Assembly: GCF_009901955.1 (NCBI RefSeq)
Contig: NZ_WUTS01000001.1
Location: 1,806,817-1,870,816 of the forward strand
Reading direction: 5' to 3'
Length of the DNA stretch: 64,000 nt
Source: Halomonas icarae
GTDB taxonomy: Bacteria; Pseudomonadota; Gammaproteobacteria; Pseudomonadales; Halomonadaceae
Below the pieces are notes generated by a model. The model was not told the origin of the DNA. It worked only from the letters and a program-made list of their open reading frames with translations, and searched no databases. The translations under genes were made by a program, and so were the position numbers. Positions 42,701 to 48,780 of the stretch are shown here, in pieces. Numbering within the stretch: the stretch's first letter is position 1; each line of letters starts with the position of its first letter.

Positions 42701-44071
42701 ATGGATAAATCACGCCATGTTCTAATGATAGGTGACCAGCGCTTTACGGCCAGCGCAGCACTATCACTGAAGCAATATGCATGGCAGTTTCAACGGACCA
42801 GCTGCCCGGTAGAGGCTGAGCAGCTTCTTCTTACATCTCCCCCTCCACTCGGAATCATTCTTATGGAGCCGGCCTATACCAGGCCCTCCCTTGAACTGGA
42901 GAGGCTGGTCTGCCTGGTGCCTTACACCCTCTGGGTAGCACTGTTAAGCACTGACAGCCTGCAGGAATATCAAATACGTGCATTTGTCGCCAGGCACTGC
43001 CATGCCTGTCTCCTGCTGCCCCTGGATCCCGAGAAAGCCAACCATGTGCTGGAGAGCACGCTCACCATTTCGGAGGTGCTTTCAGCCCATTTTGGGGACT
43101 GTAACTCCCCTGCAGTGCCCGGTCATAGGGCGCAAATGATCGGCAGGTCCCATGCTATCCAGAAACTGCTCAAGGATATCGAGAAAATTGCCTTGGTAGA
43201 TGCACCGGTACTTATTACTGGTGAATCTGGTACTGGGAAGGAGCTGACGGCTAGACTAATTCATGAGAATTCGCCCAGGCATGGAGGCCCCTTCAACGCC
43301 GTTAACTGCGGCGCCTTACCTTCCGGTCTTATCCAGTCTGAGCTCTTCGGCCATGAGAAAGGAGCTTTCACCGGCGCAGGCAAGTGCAAGGTAGGAATCA
43401 TCGAGTCGACATCGGGTGGCACCCTGTTTCTCGACGAGATCGGCGACCTCCCGCTGGAACTTCAGGTCAACCTGCTACGCTTCCTGGAAGATCACCGTAT
43501 CCAACGGCTCGGCAGTCTGCGCGAAATAGCGGTGGATGTCAGGATACTCACTGCGACCCATGTCGACCTGGAGCACGCCATACAGTCGGGCGACTTTCGA
43601 GAGGACCTCTATCATCGCATCAACGTTCTGCAAGCCAGAATGCCACCACTACGTGAAAGGCCAGAGGATATCGAGGCCCTGGCCTCTCACTACTTTCAGA
43701 AGTTTCGAGCCGAGTCACCCTGCCGGGTACGCGGCTTCAGCCATGACAGTCTTGTCACCATGCGTCAGCATCACTGGCCAGGCAATGTGCGAGAGCTGGT
43801 CAACCGAATCCGTCGTGCCATGGTGATGTGTGAGGAGCGACTGATCACGCCTGATGACCTTGGCCTGGAAAGACGCAAGGACCTCGTCAGAACACGCCCT
43901 TCCCTGGAGGATATTCGGAACTGCGCCGAACGTGAGGCCATTGCTGCCGCACTGGCTCGCAACAGGAACCATGCGCTGCACGCTGCACAGGATCTCGGCA
44001 TCTCTCGAGCCACCCTGTACCGCCTGATAGACAAGCACTGCGTTCCTCGACCGCTCGATAGCCGAGCCTAA
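42701..44071 (+). CDS. Sigma-54 activator with degenerate receiver (VpsR-like architecture)
   Basis: This enhancer-binding protein is about 456 residues. Residues 1-130 look like a response-regulator fold whose phosphorylation pocket is lost: the site after beta-3 reads GIILMEPAY (Glu for Asp). The AAA+ domain is complete, with Walker A GESGTGKE (about 174-181), the sigma-54 contact loop GAFTGA (221-226), Walker B GGTLFLDEIGD and the Arg-finger region. A Fis-type helix-turn-helix ends the protein (AAQDLGISRATLYRLIDKH). VpsR of Vibrio, a c-di-GMP-binding biofilm regulator, has a comparable layout. The ATG at 42701 has AAAGGG upstream. It is probably cotranscribed with the outer-membrane gene 20 bases on. 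Confidence 0.85.
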   Translation: MDKSRHVLMIGDQRFTASAALSLKQYAWQFQRTSCPVEAEQLLLTSPPPLGIILMEPAYTRPSLELERLVCLVPYTLWVALLSTDSLQEYQIRAFVARHCHACLLLPLDPEKANHVLESTLTISEVLSAHFGDCNSPAVPGHRAQMIGRSHAIQKLLKDIEKIALVDAPVLITGESGTGKELTARLIHENSPRHGGPFNAVNCGALPSGLIQSELFGHEKGAFTGAGKCKVGIIESTSGGTLFLDEIGDLPLELQVNLLRFLEDHRIQRLGSLREIAVDVRILTATHVDLEHAIQSGDFREDLYHRINVLQARMPPLRERPEDIEALASHYFQKFRAESPCRVRGFSHDSLVTMRQHHWPGNVRELVNRIRRAMVMCEERLITPDDLGLERRKDLVRTRPSLEDIRNCAEREAIAAALARNRNHALHAAQDLGISRATLYRLIDKHCVPRPLDSRA

Positions 44072-44091
44072 CCACCACAGGAAATGCACCC

Positions 44092-45195
44092 ATGACTTCA
44101 TATCAGCGTGTACTTATTGGTATTACAACCCCCTTTCTGTTCATCAGCGTCTCGCCTCTCATGGCCCAGGAAGCCACTCAGCCCGTCGGCCAGCAGCCAC
44201 CGGAAGCCGAGCCGCAGTTCAATGTTCAGTCAATGGCGGAGTATGGCGGTGTCCTCACCCCGCGTGGACGCCTGATACTCGAGCCCGAGTTCCAATACTC
44301 CCACGAAAGCATCAACCGAATGACCTTCGAAGGGGTCAGTGTACTCAGTACACTGCTGATCGGCGTATTCACGGCTCAGGATGTCGATCGCGACAACTAC
44401 ACCGCCTCACTGACCGGCCGCCTCGGCGTTACCGATCGCCTGGAGCTCGAGATGAAGGTGCCCTATGTCTATCGAGACGAGAACGAGAGGATCAACGTTC
44501 CCATCGAGGATGGCGAGGACGGTGTCTTCAGCCTCGACCGAGAGCTCTCCGGCGACAGTCTGGGGGACATCGAACTGGCCGCTCACTATCAGCTGAATCG
44601 TGGGCAGAACGGCATGCCCTTCTTTATCGGCAACCTGCGCTACAAGACCACCACCGGCAAGGGTCCCTTCGATATTGACCGCAATAGCGAAGGTAACCCA
44701 CTGGAACTCTCGACGGGTACGGGCTTCCACTCGATCGAGCCCAGCATCACCATGCTGCTGCCCTCGGCGCCGGCGGTCTACTTCGCCAATCTTGGCTATG
44801 TCTTTCACCTGGAAGATAGTGTGAATCAGAGCCTATCCAACGTTGATGATGATAGAGGAAACCCACTCAATGTCGTTGTCGGCGATGTCGATCCGGGCGA
44901 TGCCGTGCGTCTCAGCTTCGGCATGGCATATTCGATCAACCCGCGCACCTCCTTTACCCTGGGGTACAAGAACGACTTTATCGGCAAGACCAAGACCGAC
45001 TATGTCAATGTCGATACTGGCACCACCACCTCCGTGCAGTCGCAGACATTGAACGTCGGCTCCCTGCTGCTGGGCTGGAATTACTCGCTAAACCCGGATG
45101 TCAATATCAACGTGGGGCTCGAGCTTGGTATCACCGAGGACGCCCCGGACACCACCTTGACCTTTCGCATGCCTATCGGAATGAATGTTTTCTAG
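44092..45195 (+). CDS. Outer-membrane beta-barrel protein, possible secretion channel
   Basis: This 367-residue exported protein has a signal peptide ending PLMAQ/E. A short Gln/Pro/Glu-rich segment and MAEYGGVLTPRGRLILEPEFQYSHES follow, typical of the transporter/MetA-pathway phenol-degradation barrel family. Amphipathic strands run to the C-terminal MPIGMNVF with terminal Phe. FapF, the Fap amyloid secretion pore, is a barrel I believe is placed in or near this family. With a C39 peptidase and secreted Gly-rich proteins facing it, a secretion role is plausible. Uptake of a small hydrophobic compound is the alternative. AGGAAA precedes the ATG. Confidence 0.72.
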   Translation: MTSYQRVLIGITTPFLFISVSPLMAQEATQPVGQQPPEAEPQFNVQSMAEYGGVLTPRGRLILEPEFQYSHESINRMTFEGVSVLSTLLIGVFTAQDVDRDNYTASLTGRLGVTDRLELEMKVPYVYRDENERINVPIEDGEDGVFSLDRELSGDSLGDIELAAHYQLNRGQNGMPFFIGNLRYKTTTGKGPFDIDRNSEGNPLELSTGTGFHSIEPSITMLLPSAPAVYFANLGYVFHLEDSVNQSLSNVDDDRGNPLNVVVGDVDPGDAVRLSFGMAYSINPRTSFTLGYKNDFIGKTKTDYVNVDTGTTTSVQSQTLNVGSLLLGWNYSLNPDVNINVGLELGITEDAPDTTLTFRMPIGMNVF

Positions 45196-45253
45196 GCTGA
45201 CGCGTGTGGCACGACGCCAAGAGACCAGAGACACGTAACAGGTATAAAAGAGT

Positions 45254-45285
45254 GAGGCTGCCACTTACAGGCAGCCTCTCTCTTT
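45254..45285. terminator. Bidirectional terminator between the two arms of the cluster
   Basis: Stem GAGGCTGCC (45254-45262) with GGCAGCCTC (45270-45278), followed by TCTCTTT on the plus strand and by ACTCTTTTAT on the minus strand. Confidence 0.9.
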
Positions 45286-45344
45286 ATGGTTTATGATTTC
45301 CAGTTATGGAGATGATCGATGCGAGAGCGGTGGAAAAACCGGTG

Positions 45345-46058
45345 TCAGCGCAGAATACCGGAGAATGAATCCAGGATCGCGGCCCGTTTTCTGGCCGCAT
45401 CCAGGGCACCGATATTGTTGAGTCGAACACTGATATCGATTCTCTGCTGGATGTTCCGGTTCGATGCATTACTGACCACGCCGCTGACGATGGCCCCCCT
45501 GGTAATATTATGCAGGGCGGAGGTAAAACCCTTGGCATCGTTCAAGGCAATACCCGAAAAGTCGGCGAGGCCTGCCAGGTCTACACCACCCGGTGTCACG
45601 TCGGTCACCGATAACGTACCGTTACCAACCTGAGCCGCCATCCCGCCGGGGTCGCGCAGGGTCTGCGAGACGAGATTGGGGCCTGCCGGAGTGAAGTTGA
45701 CCACTGAGACCAGCTCTACCCTGTCGTCGATCTGTGTCTGCAGGCGGGCGCCGAAGTCCACATCGAGCCCACCAATATTGAAGCCGGCGCGCATCTGGCC
45801 CATTTCCCCATCCGCGATCACGTCACCGCGATAAAATCCGTCGTGAGCGGCACGGGACTGCGATACCTCGGCATAGAGCCTGTCCCCATCGAGGAGTGAT
45901 GCAGATTCGAGGCGCTGATAGGCAGTCGTCTCGGAGGCCTCTGCCAGCACCTCTGTAGAAAGCGTTGCGGCCTGAGAGCCAGCCGCCAGGAATAGAGCGG
46001 CCGCACACCCCCACCCAAGCCGGCTTGCCGTACCTTGTCGAAAAGCCCGAGAGTTCAT
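45345..46058 (-). CDS. Exported protein of the Gly-rich operon, function unknown
   Basis: This 237-residue protein is not recognised as a named family. It has a signal peptide (cleavage near AAGSQA/ATLS). The mature part is beta-prone and rich in Asn, Ser, Asp and Gly, with no Cys after the signal, and ends RAAILDSFSGILR. The segment NRNIQQRIDISVRLNNIGALD has the Asn/Ile/Gln pattern seen in amyloid-type repeats, but only once. GAGGAG precedes the ATG, 15 bases after the peptidase stop, so it is the last gene of the operon. By position and size it could be a FapE-like accessory component; that is inference. Confidence 0.7.
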   Translation of the reverse strand: MNSRAFRQGTASRLGWGCAAALFLAAGSQAATLSTEVLAEASETTAYQRLESASLLDGDRLYAEVSQSRAAHDGFYRGDVIADGEMGQMRAGFNIGGLDVDFGARLQTQIDDRVELVSVVNFTPAGPNLVSQTLRDPGGMAAQVGNGTLSVTDVTPGGVDLAGLADFSGIALNDAKGFTSALHNITRGAIVSGVVSNASNRNIQQRIDISVRLNNIGALDAARKRAAILDSFSGILR

Positions 46059-46073
46059 CGTATTATCTCCTCG

Positions 46074-46778
46074 CTACCGACCCAGCTCATTATAGGCGGG
46101 CAGGGTCAGCAGGCTGGCACCGACGCTCGAGCGGTTCACGCCTCTGGAGAGCGGAGATTCGGGGCGCACGGCCCAGTCCTGATCATGGTTGAAGTGCTGG
46201 CGGGCCACTTCGAGCTCGGCGCGGGCACCGAGGACCGTGCCGCTCCACAACTGCTCGAACTGCTCACGAGTCACCACCAGGGTACCGGCGGCAGGGTCTC
46301 CCACCAGGATATTATCGTCATCTATCCCCTTGACGACGACGAAGTGCTTGTAGCCGGCGGTGTTCACCATGGTGATGGCCGGAACACCGATGCGAATGAA
46401 GTCATCCAGCGTGATCCGAAACCCGTCGGCATTGAGTCCACGTCCATCCAGATAGTGTTTCATATCCAGCATGGAAAAGCCGTAACGCTGAATCTTCTCT
46501 GCGTCACCGGCGCGAATCATGGTCTCGAAGACTTCGGCCTCTGTCGTGTCACGCTGGTAGTGATAGGTCAGTAGCGTTGCCACGGCGGCCGATCCGCAAC
46601 TGAAGTCATACTCTTGCCGGACCACCCTGTCCCAGCCTTTCTCCTGAAGACTCTTGGCCTCTACCTGGAAGTTTCCAAATCGACTGGCGATGGTCACCTG
46701 GCCGGCGATGACGTTCATGCTGCTCAGGATGAGCAACAGTGATGCCATACCACAGCAGAGGTTCCGAAACACGTTCAT
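46074..46778 (-). CDS. Periplasmic C39-type cysteine peptidase (FapD-like)
   Basis: This 234-residue protein has an N-terminal signal peptide and a C39 (bacteriocin-processing type) peptidase domain. The Cys61 nucleophile lies in QEYDFSCGSAAVATLL, His145 in AGYKHFVVVKGI and Asp161 in ILVGDPAAG, so the catalytic set looks intact. C39 domains usually sit at the N-terminus of ABC exporters that trim double-Gly leaders. Here it is free, exported and lacks any ABC partner in the operon, as FapD does in the Pseudomonas Fap system. AAGGGATG precedes the ATG. It probably processes or gates secretion of the two upstream-encoded exported proteins. Confidence 0.83.
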   Translation of the reverse strand: MNVFRNLCCGMASLLLILSSMNVIAGQVTIASRFGNFQVEAKSLQEKGWDRVVRQEYDFSCGSAAVATLLTYHYQRDTTEAEVFETMIRAGDAEKIQRYGFSMLDMKHYLDGRGLNADGFRITLDDFIRIGVPAITMVNTAGYKHFVVVKGIDDDNILVGDPAAGTLVVTREQFEQLWSGTVLGARAELEVARQHFNHDQDWAVRPESPLSRGVNRSSVGASLLTLPAYNELGR

Positions 46779-46828
46779 GGCGAATCATCCCTTGATGGGC
46801 GTGTCATATGACGGTTTATTTCATTGCG

Positions 46829-47302
46829 TCAATTAGCGATGAACACGCTGATCCCCACCGCGTTATTGATAGAGTTTCCGTTGCCGGACACGGCACTGAA
46901 GATGCCCGTACCGCTATAGCTGCCCAGCGCGTCCGGCGCGAAGGTAATGTTTCCCGACACCATGTTGCCTCCGATATCGAAGGAGGTGTCGTTTACCGAT
47001 GCCTTCATCTTCTGAACGCTCTTGACCGTGTTGACGTTGACGGTCATCTGCCCTTCACGGGCCCTGGCCTGCTCCATTGTTGTGCGATCCAGATGTTCCA
47101 TGGCGGAAAAGCCCTGTGACAGGCTCTGACTAACGTCCCCACCAGAACCAGACACAAAGATCTCTTGATAGATATTGATGCCTGTCTCCGCGTGGCTGTT
47201 CGGCGCACCCACCACCAACAGCACCGAAAGGAGTAATGGTGCTGTGACCATATGGCGATGACGCCACCTGCCGGGGTATGAACTGACAATCAAGCTTTTC
47301 AT
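46829..47302 (-). CDS. Small exported protein, candidate minor fibre component
   Basis: This protein of about 157 residues has a long N-region and then a signal segment (MVTAPLLLSVLLVVGAPNSHA/ET). The mature part is Ser/Gly/Asn-rich, with VNVNTVKSVQKMKASVNDTSFDIGGN and a C-terminal NGNSINNAVGISVFIAN that recalls beta-strand repeats of secreted amyloids. It is not recognised as a known family. The frame is open to 47419, but the ATG at 47302, with GGGAG upstream, gives a proper signal peptide. It lies 127 bases after the Gly-rich gene and 50 bases before the peptidase gene. Confidence 0.7.
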   Translation of the reverse strand: MKSLIVSSYPGRWRHRHMVTAPLLLSVLLVVGAPNSHAETGINIYQEIFVSGSGGDVSQSLSQGFSAMEHLDRTTMEQARAREGQMTVNVNTVKSVQKMKASVNDTSFDIGGNMVSGNITFAPDALGSYSGTGIFSAVSGNGNSINNAVGISVFIAN

Positions 47303-47361
47303 GGTGCGAACTCCCGAACTCCGTGAACTCTCGAACTCCAATCCCCAGGGCGCTTCATCAA

Positions 47362-47391
47362 GGAGCCAGTGGAGGTTCCTCCACCGGCTCC
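47362..47391 (-). promoter_or_regulatory. Strong hairpin between the first two operon genes
   Basis: Arms GGAGCCAGTGGAGG (47362-47375) and CCTCCACCGGCTCC (47378-47391) pair with one mismatch across a TT loop. No T-run follows on the minus strand. This suits an mRNA 3'-protecting or partial-termination element that would keep the first transcript abundant relative to the rest. Confidence 0.6.
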
Positions 47392-47429
47392 CGACTCTTG
47401 CGTCGTTGCAGCGCGTCACGCGCTCCGGA

Positions 47430-48629
47430 TCAGTTGCCGATGCTCACGTTGCTGTGAGCCGCCACGCTGGTACCGGACAGCTGCGAGTTATAGAGGCCGG
47501 TGGACACGTTCATGTTGTTGATGCCACCGAACACCCCGCCTCCCACGGCGACGTTGGCCGCGCCTGTGGTCAGGAATGCCGCACCGCCGTTACCGCCGTT
47601 GCCGCCGGCACCGCCACCACCTGCATAAGCGTAGGCGTCACCTGTGGCAGCACTGCCGCCACCGCCGCCGCCGCCGTAGCCGTCGCCGCCGGCGCCGGCC
47701 ACTGCGCTGGCCCAGCCGGTACCGGTGCCGTCGCCGCCAGCACCGGAACCAGTGCCGCTGCCGCTACCGCTACCGTTGCCGGTGCCGCTGCCTGCACCTC
47801 CAGTGCCGGCCGTCGCCCCGGAAGAGGCACCCGCCGAGGAGTTGGCATTCTGGGAACCACCCGCACCACCGGGAGCGAGGAAGCCGCCTGAGCCGCCATC
47901 ACCGTTCTGGTCGTTGTCGGCATTGGAGGCAGCGAGAGCGCCACTGCCAGCATCGGCACTACCGCCTACGCCGAAGCCAGTGCCGGTTCCTGTTCCGGTA
48001 CCTGTACCGGTACCGGTACCGGCACCACCGGTACCGCCGCCAAGACCTAGCGCACCGGCATTGCCACCGCTAGCGCCATTTCCATTACCGCCATTACCGC
48101 CGACACCCAGCCCGACGTTGAGGGAGAATGCCGCTCCGCCAGCGCCCCCGGCAGCACCGGCAGCACCGGCACCACCATTGATATTGATGCGAGCTCCGGT
48201 AACGGTTGACGTCATATCCTGGCGAGAGATCACACTGGTGGAGGTGTTGTAGGACTCGCTCATGGCCCAGGCGTCGCCGCCGCGGCCGGTAGAGCCGCCC
48301 ATGCCGCCCATGCCGGTACCACTACCATAGCCGCCTGAGCCTGCACCGCCGGTGCCACCGGCCCCACCGGACCCGCCACCGCCCAGCAGGCCGCTGTCGT
48401 TGTCGTCTCCGCCATCGGCACTACCGCCGGTACCAGCACCACCAGCACCAAAGCCGAGTCCTGATCCTCCTGTAGAACTACCGCTAGAGCCTCCCACGGC
48501 AGTGGCGGTAGAGTTCACGTCCTGATCAGCTCCATCAGAGAAGGTGGCGGTCGGGTTGGCATGTGCCGTTGAAATGGCCATTACCAGGGCCAGCAGAGGC
48601 GTACCCGCGAGTACAAGATGCTTTTTCAT
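47430..48629 (-). CDS. Glycine-rich exported protein, candidate major fibre subunit
   Basis: This protein of about 399 residues starts MKKHLVLAGTPLLALVMAISTAHA (signal peptide). The mature part is dominated by Gly with Ala, Ser, Thr and Asn, has no Cys, and contains Gly-Thr and Gly-Ser dipeptide runs. A less simple middle segment (AWAMSESYNTSTSVISRQDMTS region, about 125-150) and the C-terminus stand out. The C-terminal NMNVSTGLYNSQLSGTSVA shares the pattern N-V-x-x-G-x-[YF]-N-x-Q with the Fap amyloid repeat as I remember it. It is the first gene behind a sigma-54 promoter. ATG at 48629 is preferred over 48635 because GGAG is eight bases upstream. It looks like a structural secreted polymer rather than an enzyme. 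Confidence 0.75.
   Translation of the reverse strand: MKKHLVLAGTPLLALVMAISTAHANPTATFSDGADQDVNSTATAVGGSSGSSTGGSGLGFGAGGAGTGGSADGGDDNDSGLLGGGGSGGAGGTGGAGSGGYGSGTGMGGMGGSTGRGGDAWAMSESYNTSTSVISRQDMTSTVTGARININGGAGAAGAAGGAGGAAFSLNVGLGVGGNGGNGNGASGGNAGALGLGGGTGGAGTGTGTGTGTGTGTGFGVGGSADAGSGALAASNADNDQNGDGGSGGFLAPGGAGGSQNANSSAGASSGATAGTGGAGSGTGNGSGSGSGTGSGAGGDGTGTGWASAVAGAGGDGYGGGGGGGSAATGDAYAYAGGGGAGGNGGNGGAAFLTTGAANVAVGGGVFGGINNMNVSTGLYNSQLSGTSVAAHSNVSIGN
47981..48026. repeat. Hexanucleotide repeat (GGTACC/GGTACA type) coding for Gly-Thr
   Basis: A run of six-base units such as GGTACCGGTACCGGTACA (minus strand) encodes (Gly-Thr)n in the Gly-rich protein. Length change by whole units would keep the frame. 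Confidence 0.85.
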
Positions 48630-48743
48630 GATCATGTCTCCATTGGTTGTTGCTGCTGCAGCCTACGAACCCGCGCCACCGCTCTGACCCACATACATTC
48701 CGGTCCCCTGAATGACGCTCGCGTTCGCAGTCACCAATCATTA

Positions 48744-48759
48744 AGCAACCACCATGCCA
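48744..48759 (-). promoter_or_regulatory. Sigma-54 (-24/-12) promoter of the Gly-rich operon
   Basis: On the minus strand TGGCATGGTGGTTGCT matches the consensus TGGCAC-N5-TTGC[AT]. GG and GC are exactly ten bases apart, and the only mismatch is T for C at the sixth position. It lies about 115 bases upstream of the Gly-rich start, giving a leader of about 100 bases. The adjacent activator carries the GAFTGA sigma-54 loop. Confidence 0.8.
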
Positions 48760-48780
48760 TCTAATCGGCCATGACCTGTA

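Follow-up and report, generated by a model that had tools for sequence, protein, structure and literature searches.

A Halomonas icarae locus with FapF- and FapD-like proteins is probably a sister of the Fap system

Is a locus that joins a FapF-like outer-membrane barrel and a free C39 peptidase to a very glycine-rich exported protein a diverged Fap amyloid operon, an export system of its own or a set of unrelated parts? This question is raised by six genes at positions 42701-48635 of a 64,000-nucleotide stretch of the Halomonas icarae contig NZ_WUTS01000001.1 (the window hereafter means this whole stretch). They form two converging units, with a sigma-54 activator and the barrel on the forward strand and, in order of transcription, the Gly-rich protein (GLY), a small exported protein (P5), the C39 peptidase and another exported protein (P3) on the reverse strand. 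In our judgement the locus probably encodes a FapF/FapD-type export and assembly system that is sister to Fap and not Fap itself, acting by the mechanism proposed below. The part of this reading that may change thinking is a leader shared by P3, P5 and FapE.

By sequence comparison, the barrel is homologous to FapF and the peptidase to FapD. The best match of the barrel in the PDB was FapF (5o67; E 6.6e-31, residues 38-361), and the NCBIfam model of FapF (NF058560) was matched at positions 100-417 of 420 (E 4.9e-41; 140.9 bits, cut-off 700). The peptidase matched the C39 family of Pfam (7.5e-22) and the NCBIfam model of FapD (NF058616; 8.9e-40; 136.3 bits, cut-off 330), and its triad Cys61, His145 and Asp161 was invariant across 31 aligned relatives. 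As a control served a Fap locus from another genome of the same genus (L054), in which FapB, FapC, FapD, FapE and FapF were matched with E values ranging from 2.3e-30 to 6.3e-110 (FapB 2.3e-30, FapC 3.6e-56). All five of these matches, including those of the barrel (367.8 bits) and the peptidase (284.3 bits), fell below the curated cut-offs, and therefore the NCBIfam cut-offs cannot decide Fap membership here. The kinship with FapF and FapD that the initial annotation had proposed was thus borne out by the family searches and the FapF comparison. It is hardly credible that the two genes are unrelated parts, namely a COG4313-type hydrophobic uptake channel beside a bacteriocin-type C39 processing system. 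In favour of this, C39 peptidases are chiefly known from the ATP-binding cassette (ABC) exporters of bacteriocins, and the barrel weakly matched Phenol_MetA_deg (E 0.0018, below cut-off); however, the peptidase is a stand-alone protein of 234 amino acids with an export-like N-terminus and no fused ABC transporter, the barrel matched FapF strongly and no uptake channel was listed at E <=1 in the PDB, and the genes stay together as a set in relatives. For the six window proteins, the families that Pfam listed at E <=1 did not include a curlin.

In a diverged Fap operon, GLY would be FapC, P5 FapB and P3 FapE, and an ordinary Fap amyloid would be made. This would agree with the homology of peptidase and barrel, with the similar activator and sigma-54 site of same-genus Fap loci, and with profile matches, described below, of P3-like proteins to FapE in the leader region and, weakly, of P5-like proteins to the C-terminal repeat of FapB. 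It is nevertheless quite unlikely. No NCBIfam FapB, FapC or FapE match at E <=1 was obtained in the window, while L054 matched all five families strongly. In a tree of 81 chosen peptidases, Fap formed one supported branch (19 rows, 99/93) with the window peptidase outside it; the sister system had its own branch of 58 rows (7 Halomonadaceae and 51 others, 95/91), and four Fil-like peptidases stood separate (100/99; the label Fil-like is ours). The tree, drawn with a midpoint root, contains long branches, and the program gave a warning on one Fil-like row. Furthermore, five same-genus genomes with a window-type locus (G006, G020, G041, G045 and G053) hold a further FapD-like gene, and two of these further loci (L053 and L054) read as Fap. 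The missing families and the peptidase tree support the earlier view of a related but distinct export system. The genome of the window itself gave one FapD-family match and no FapE match, so that no canonical Fap was seen beside the window system in this host in these searches. In genome G006, L053:2736-12703 contains tandem Fap-like runs, with the order FapE-FapD-FapC-FapB present twice and FapF once in the stretch.

The features of the locus, in window coordinates, are the following (a slash marks a predicted cut).

42701-44071, forward strand: sigma-54 (enhancer-binding) activator with a VpsR-type N-domain and a Fis-type helix-turn-helix (Pfam matches)
44092-45195, forward strand: FapF-type outer-membrane barrel lacking the long coiled-coil part in the periplasm (PDB and NCBIfam FapF matches)
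45254-45278, no strand assigned: two-way terminator-like hairpin between the converging units (9-bp stem, T-rich tail on both strands)
45345-46058, reverse strand: P3, FapE-like exported protein with a double-glycine-type leader ending ...MRAG/F (leader motif, profile match)
46074-46778, reverse strand: exported FapD-type C39 cysteine peptidase of 234 amino acids with the triad Cys61/His145/Asp161 (Pfam and NCBIfam)
46829-47302, reverse strand: P5, small exported protein with a leader-like site ...EQARAR/E and a G/N-rich C-terminal motif (leader motif)
47430-48635, reverse strand: GLY, Gly-rich exported protein with a conserved C-terminus (alignment, dN/dS)
48744-48760, reverse strand: putative sigma-54 -24/-12 promoter ATGGCATGGTGGTTGCT, 125 nt before the GLY start codon (matrix score 15.7)

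All six features of the initial annotation, the intact triad among them, and their arrangement in two converging units were found. P3, P5 and GLY have hydrophobic export-like N-termini, on which their designation as exported is based.

Behind its export segment, P3 carries a leader of the form [ILM]xxxx[LM]xx[LM]R[GA]G followed by Phe in 24/24 orthologues. P5 has a leader-like site at the same distance ([LIVM]xxxx[LM]xxxx[AG] with Arg or Lys at the end), likewise in 24/24 orthologues. C39 peptidases cut double-glycine leaders in bacteriocin export, and in its residue pattern the P3/P5 leader resembles these. The training set of a leader matrix consisted solely of 43 different Halomonas 12-mers, and its threshold of 9 was fixed in the same script. 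The matrix was applied to 51 held-out loci from outside the Halomonadaceae; as the pattern had been noticed in P3 and P5 and in some Fap and sister loci before the matrix was made, this test was not blind. The threshold was reached by 37 of the 46 export-type open reading frames (ORFs) directly downstream of the peptidase, by 17/69 upstream of it and by 5/73 within 3 kb (all small Photobacterium proteins), compared with 0/145 distant export-type ORFs and 0/333 shuffled copies. At least one peptidase-adjacent hit was present in 43/51 loci.

The same leader was found in FapE. In same-genus Fap loci, where FapE was identified by family match (L054) or by position and alignment (the others), it was present in 8/8 with scores of 16.9-22.0. 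Among 16 FapE proteins from 15 other genomes (best FapE family match 2.0e-18 or better in each), 13 reached 9, compared with 30/3200 shuffles, and the pattern [LIV]xxxx[LM]xxxRG[RK][FY] was seen by eye in all 16. Some proteins at the FapA position of same-genus Fap loci have a leader-like site, one scoring 14.2 and others lower. Among the FapB and FapC proteins listed from these loci no leader outside the signal peptide was observed; two FapC hits (9.2 and 14.4) were taken as false, both being inside the signal peptide. In the P3 structure model, a helix at residues 83-90 coincides with the leader, with a confidence there of about 50 or below.

In published work, the catalytic Cys of FapD is described as required for secretion, and by mass spectrometry only FapE showed complete N-terminal processing, with no peptides in about the first 70 residues (PMC5557850). 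The leader proposal fits this finding. A 2018 review stated that the FapD substrate was yet to be determined (PMC6173800), and a 2025 review names FapE and FapF as presumed targets of FapD processing (PMC12822426). Among the matches listed from the open-access literature (titles and abstract openings; subscription papers and supplements lie outside this scope), none names a FapE leader. Because the leader is common to P3/P5, to peptidase-adjacent ORFs and to FapE, the C39 protease probably matures FapE-like proteins, and the shared leader, a prediction from sequence alone, may identify the FapD substrate. It would thereby name substrates and a residue range for FapD-type proteases.

The window proteins also resemble those of the Fil pilus of Acinetobacter (FilB peptidase and FilC barrel in NCBIfam), both matches being below the cut-off: the peptidase matched FilB with 8.7e-37 (127 bits, cut-off 475) and the barrel FilC with 1e-19 (71.2 bits, cut-off 630). 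In contrast to the window system, the Fil-like C39-barrel pairs form their own tree group and no strong leader-matrix site was found near them. Near two such pairs (L058:10851-13030 and L059:9815-10903), secreted proteins start with a site of the type LDDGILSGVTGQ-DG; its matrix score is low, and it may be a third leader variant.

P3 is most like FapE in profile comparisons. A set of 22 chosen P3-like proteins matched FapE over a 47-column stretch spanning the leader (E 2.4e-6, probability 89%) and Halomonas P3 with a probability of 97.6%; the Halomonas P3 profile matched FapE directly more weakly, in the leader region (E 5e-4, 30%). The stretch common to P3-like proteins and FapE may be only the processing signal. 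In its structure model P3 is beta-rich at residues 100-213. For P5, 22 chosen P5-like proteins weakly matched the FapB C-terminal repeat (E 6.9e-4, 27%). A model built on the C-terminal 50 residues of large subunits in sister loci (39 sequences, match limit 1e-3) matched FapB in 7/7 cases and 14 of the 22 P5-like proteins, and neither FapC (0/7) nor distant ORFs (0/504).

From its sequence, GLY is the probable main secreted subunit. Mean column identity is 60% in an alignment of 23 sequences, dN/dS is 0.13 and 0.10, and the C-termini are strongly conserved in Halomonas and the nearest sister loci. The large subunit varies by lineage, being Gly-rich, of Asn/Ser/Asp repeats or of other kinds; in Aestuariicella and Marinobacter (L115, L130, L140 and L143) NSD-type repeats stand in place of Gly-rich runs. 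GLY could instead be an adhesin, a coat or a polyglycine-type protein, rich in Gly and either soluble or attached to the surface. This non-fibrous product would suit the lack of a recognisable amyloid repeat, the modelling of GLY as unstructured (pLDDT 32.6) and the differences of the large subunit between lineages. The machinery is, however, closest to an amyloid exporter, and sister large subunits end in the motif whose model matches FapB and no distant ORF, so that we regard a non-fibrous GLY as doubtful.

In the mechanism that we propose for the sister system, the activator and sigma-54 would switch on the operon GLY-P5-C39-P3, as predicted from promoter and linkage, and the five structural proteins would cross the inner membrane by Sec. 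The periplasmic C39 peptidase would bind the post-Sec leader of P3 and P5 and cut after its Gly or Arg/Lys end. By analogy with the FapD activity that FapC secretion requires, this maturation would license secretion through the barrel, and unfolded GLY would exit with P5 and P3 through it and assemble outside as a surface fibre or matrix. More tentatively, and in our estimate with slightly less than an even chance, Fap would belong, as one branch, to a broader and so far undescribed class of outer-membrane fibre exporters, in which helpers carry a Sec signal and then a C39-cut double-glycine-type leader, FapE-type cleavage opens or primes a FapF-type pore, and the bulk protein is interchangeable (Gly-rich, Asn/Asp-rich or others). 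The sister system would offer a second model with another bulk subunit, which would separate the needs of the exporter from those of the fibre, and halophiles might through it become a source of Gly-rich secreted materials.

Several points weigh against this mechanism. The coiled-coil part of FapF, reported as vital for FapC secretion (PMC6173800), is missing in the window barrel. The P5 leader ends with Arg or Lys and not with the canonical Gly, and among the held-out loci 8/51 have no adjacent leader above threshold and 52/69 upstream ORFs are below it. In Pseudomonas UK4, FapA peptides were found throughout and FapA was not processed, which is a misfit with a general role for the FapA-position site, and FapF was also discussed as a possible FapD target (PMC5557850). 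P3 lacks a clear structural relative. GLY showed no kinship with FapC when compared with the profile of same-genus FapC (E 0.19), and the C-terminal model matched 0/23 window-type GLY and 0/24 Halomonas P5 proteins. From the results with this model, the wider system has a FapB-like repeat, and Halomonas GLY left this pattern or never had it. Finally, the loci are related, so that the counts are non-independent and inflated.

Regarding the pore, the periplasmic coiled-coil of FapF is absent from the window barrel, as the match begins at model position 100 of 420. Since the Fap barrel of L054 starts at position 83, a short N-terminus relative to the FapF model is common to the window and local Fap. 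A sister barrel (L072:5690-6883) shows by eye a long N-terminal stretch resembling a coiled-coil, which is missing from the window barrel, and such stretches may therefore come and go among sister barrels.

Compared with Pseudomonas Fap, the window system shares a FapF-type barrel, a periplasmic C39 peptidase with intact triad, exported subunits, sigma-54 control and the FapE leader motif. It differs in having no FapB, FapC or FapE family match, a Gly-rich main protein, a peptidase outside the Fap group, a P3 that is FapE-like in the leader region only, a converging two-unit layout and a pore without coiled-coil. The initial annotation had taken the separation of the pore gene from the subunits and its pairing with a regulator as a mark of distinctness. 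Barrel and activator are indeed on the opposite strand, and the locus is not a single operon of the fapABCDEF or fapBCDEF kind; however, separation of fapF is reported as a common deviation within Fap, and the gene is detached in some genera (PMC3792158), so that a detached pore gene is not unusual. The same source already noted larger FapD and FapF families, and fapD-fapF pairs outside Fap operons have been noted in five further phyla (Rouse et al. 2018, PMC6173800). The window system may be one of these co-located homologues; in the sections concerned, no subunits, leaders or regulator are given for such pairs. In view of these reports, the kind of system is already known and the window system is a variant of it.

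The proposal that the locus has its own sigma-54 control agrees with the activator and the conserved site before GLY, although this control is not special. The activator matched Sigma54_activat (1.6e-66), HTH_8 (Fis-type, 1.7e-07) and VpsR (29.4 bits, cut-off 23.7). Its N-domain thus resembles VpsR-type regulators (PF20161) above the Pfam cut-off; different from these, its GAFTGA motif is intact, and use of sigma-54 is therefore expected. Of 79 surveyed activators, fragments included, 55 had the exact motif and 11 had none. VpsR binds c-di-GMP. As the N-domain is VpsR-like and a possible phospho-acceptor column is not conserved (E in the window activator, D in 17/79 aligned, fragments and gaps included), a ligand such as c-di-GMP is a guess. 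With a -24/-12 matrix written from the sigma-54 consensus, a site scoring at least 11 was found in 21/23 orthologous 300-nt regions upstream of GLY and in 1.6% of dinucleotide shuffles, while 0/21 regions before the activator reached 9. The candidate promoter at 48744-48760 nearly coincides with the right boundary (48759) of the initial annotation. Same-genus Fap operons are alike in having a site of at least 14 in 7/8 upstream regions and a similar activator nearby, and RpoN raises fap expression in P. fluorescens (PMC8202526).

The gene set is kept together in other Halomonadaceae, as had been anticipated. A C39 search gave matches in 40/97 genomes, and the close form (at least 59% identity) was present in 24 of 61 same-genus genomes, own included. 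Barrel, P3 and P5 lay beside it in 24/24 of these loci in the same converging order; in the 23 loci besides the window, GLY and P5 were present in all and the activator in 22, the remaining locus being incomplete. In a scan of named genomes, at least 566 loci were confirmed, of which the best 80 were retained (29 Halomonadaceae and 51 others). P5, C39, P3, barrel and activator were found in 29/29 of the former, with P3 and activator in pieces in one of them (L084). The 51 others, from Thioalkalivibrio, Ectothiorhodospira, Marinobacter, Vibrio, Photobacterium, Aromatoleum, Thauera, Desulfopila and Kiloniellaceae among others, had a barrel in 47 and a sigma-54 activator like that of the window in 31; the similarity limit (E <=1e-30) can be passed by other sigma-54 activators, and several of the fetched stretches are cut off where the contig stops. 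Of 369 genomes sampled evenly across the class, 45 matched the peptidase profile at 1e-15 and 15 with at least 220 bits (own included; next score 150), 15 matched FapE, none above the curated cut-off, and 5 the Halomonas-type P3 profile. On these sequence comparisons, the window locus belongs, as its Halomonas branch, to a sister system of wider distribution. A description of this system was not found in the open-access literature, within the scope given above for FapE leaders, which does not show absence from print.

Some loci depart from the common layout. Six Photobacterium loci (L117, L119, L125, L127, L129 and L139) have an extra small leader-bearing protein and an extra large subunit, and their barrel and activator are placed differently. 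In more distant Halomonadaceae (L048-L051) the barrel-adjacent activator is more diverged, and a second one, closer to that of the window, lies about 0.4-1.5 kb away. A Chloroflexota bin (L147) and an alphaproteobacterial bin (L137) have almost the same peptidase, each with a 2138-aa ORF upstream; the phylum label of L147 is therefore probably due to binning contamination.

The layout is beyond chance, as the gene order is kept in relatives and dN/dS is 0.07-0.22 against the closest relatives (six genes compared with L031, five with L032). From these values all six are real genes, GLY included. Terminator-like sites numbered 8 in the scanned 9.5 kb with 5.3 expected, so the hairpin between the units is by itself weak evidence. 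Antisense to GLY, a proline-rich open frame (47725-48252, forward strand) is an apparent by-product of the GLY Gly codons.

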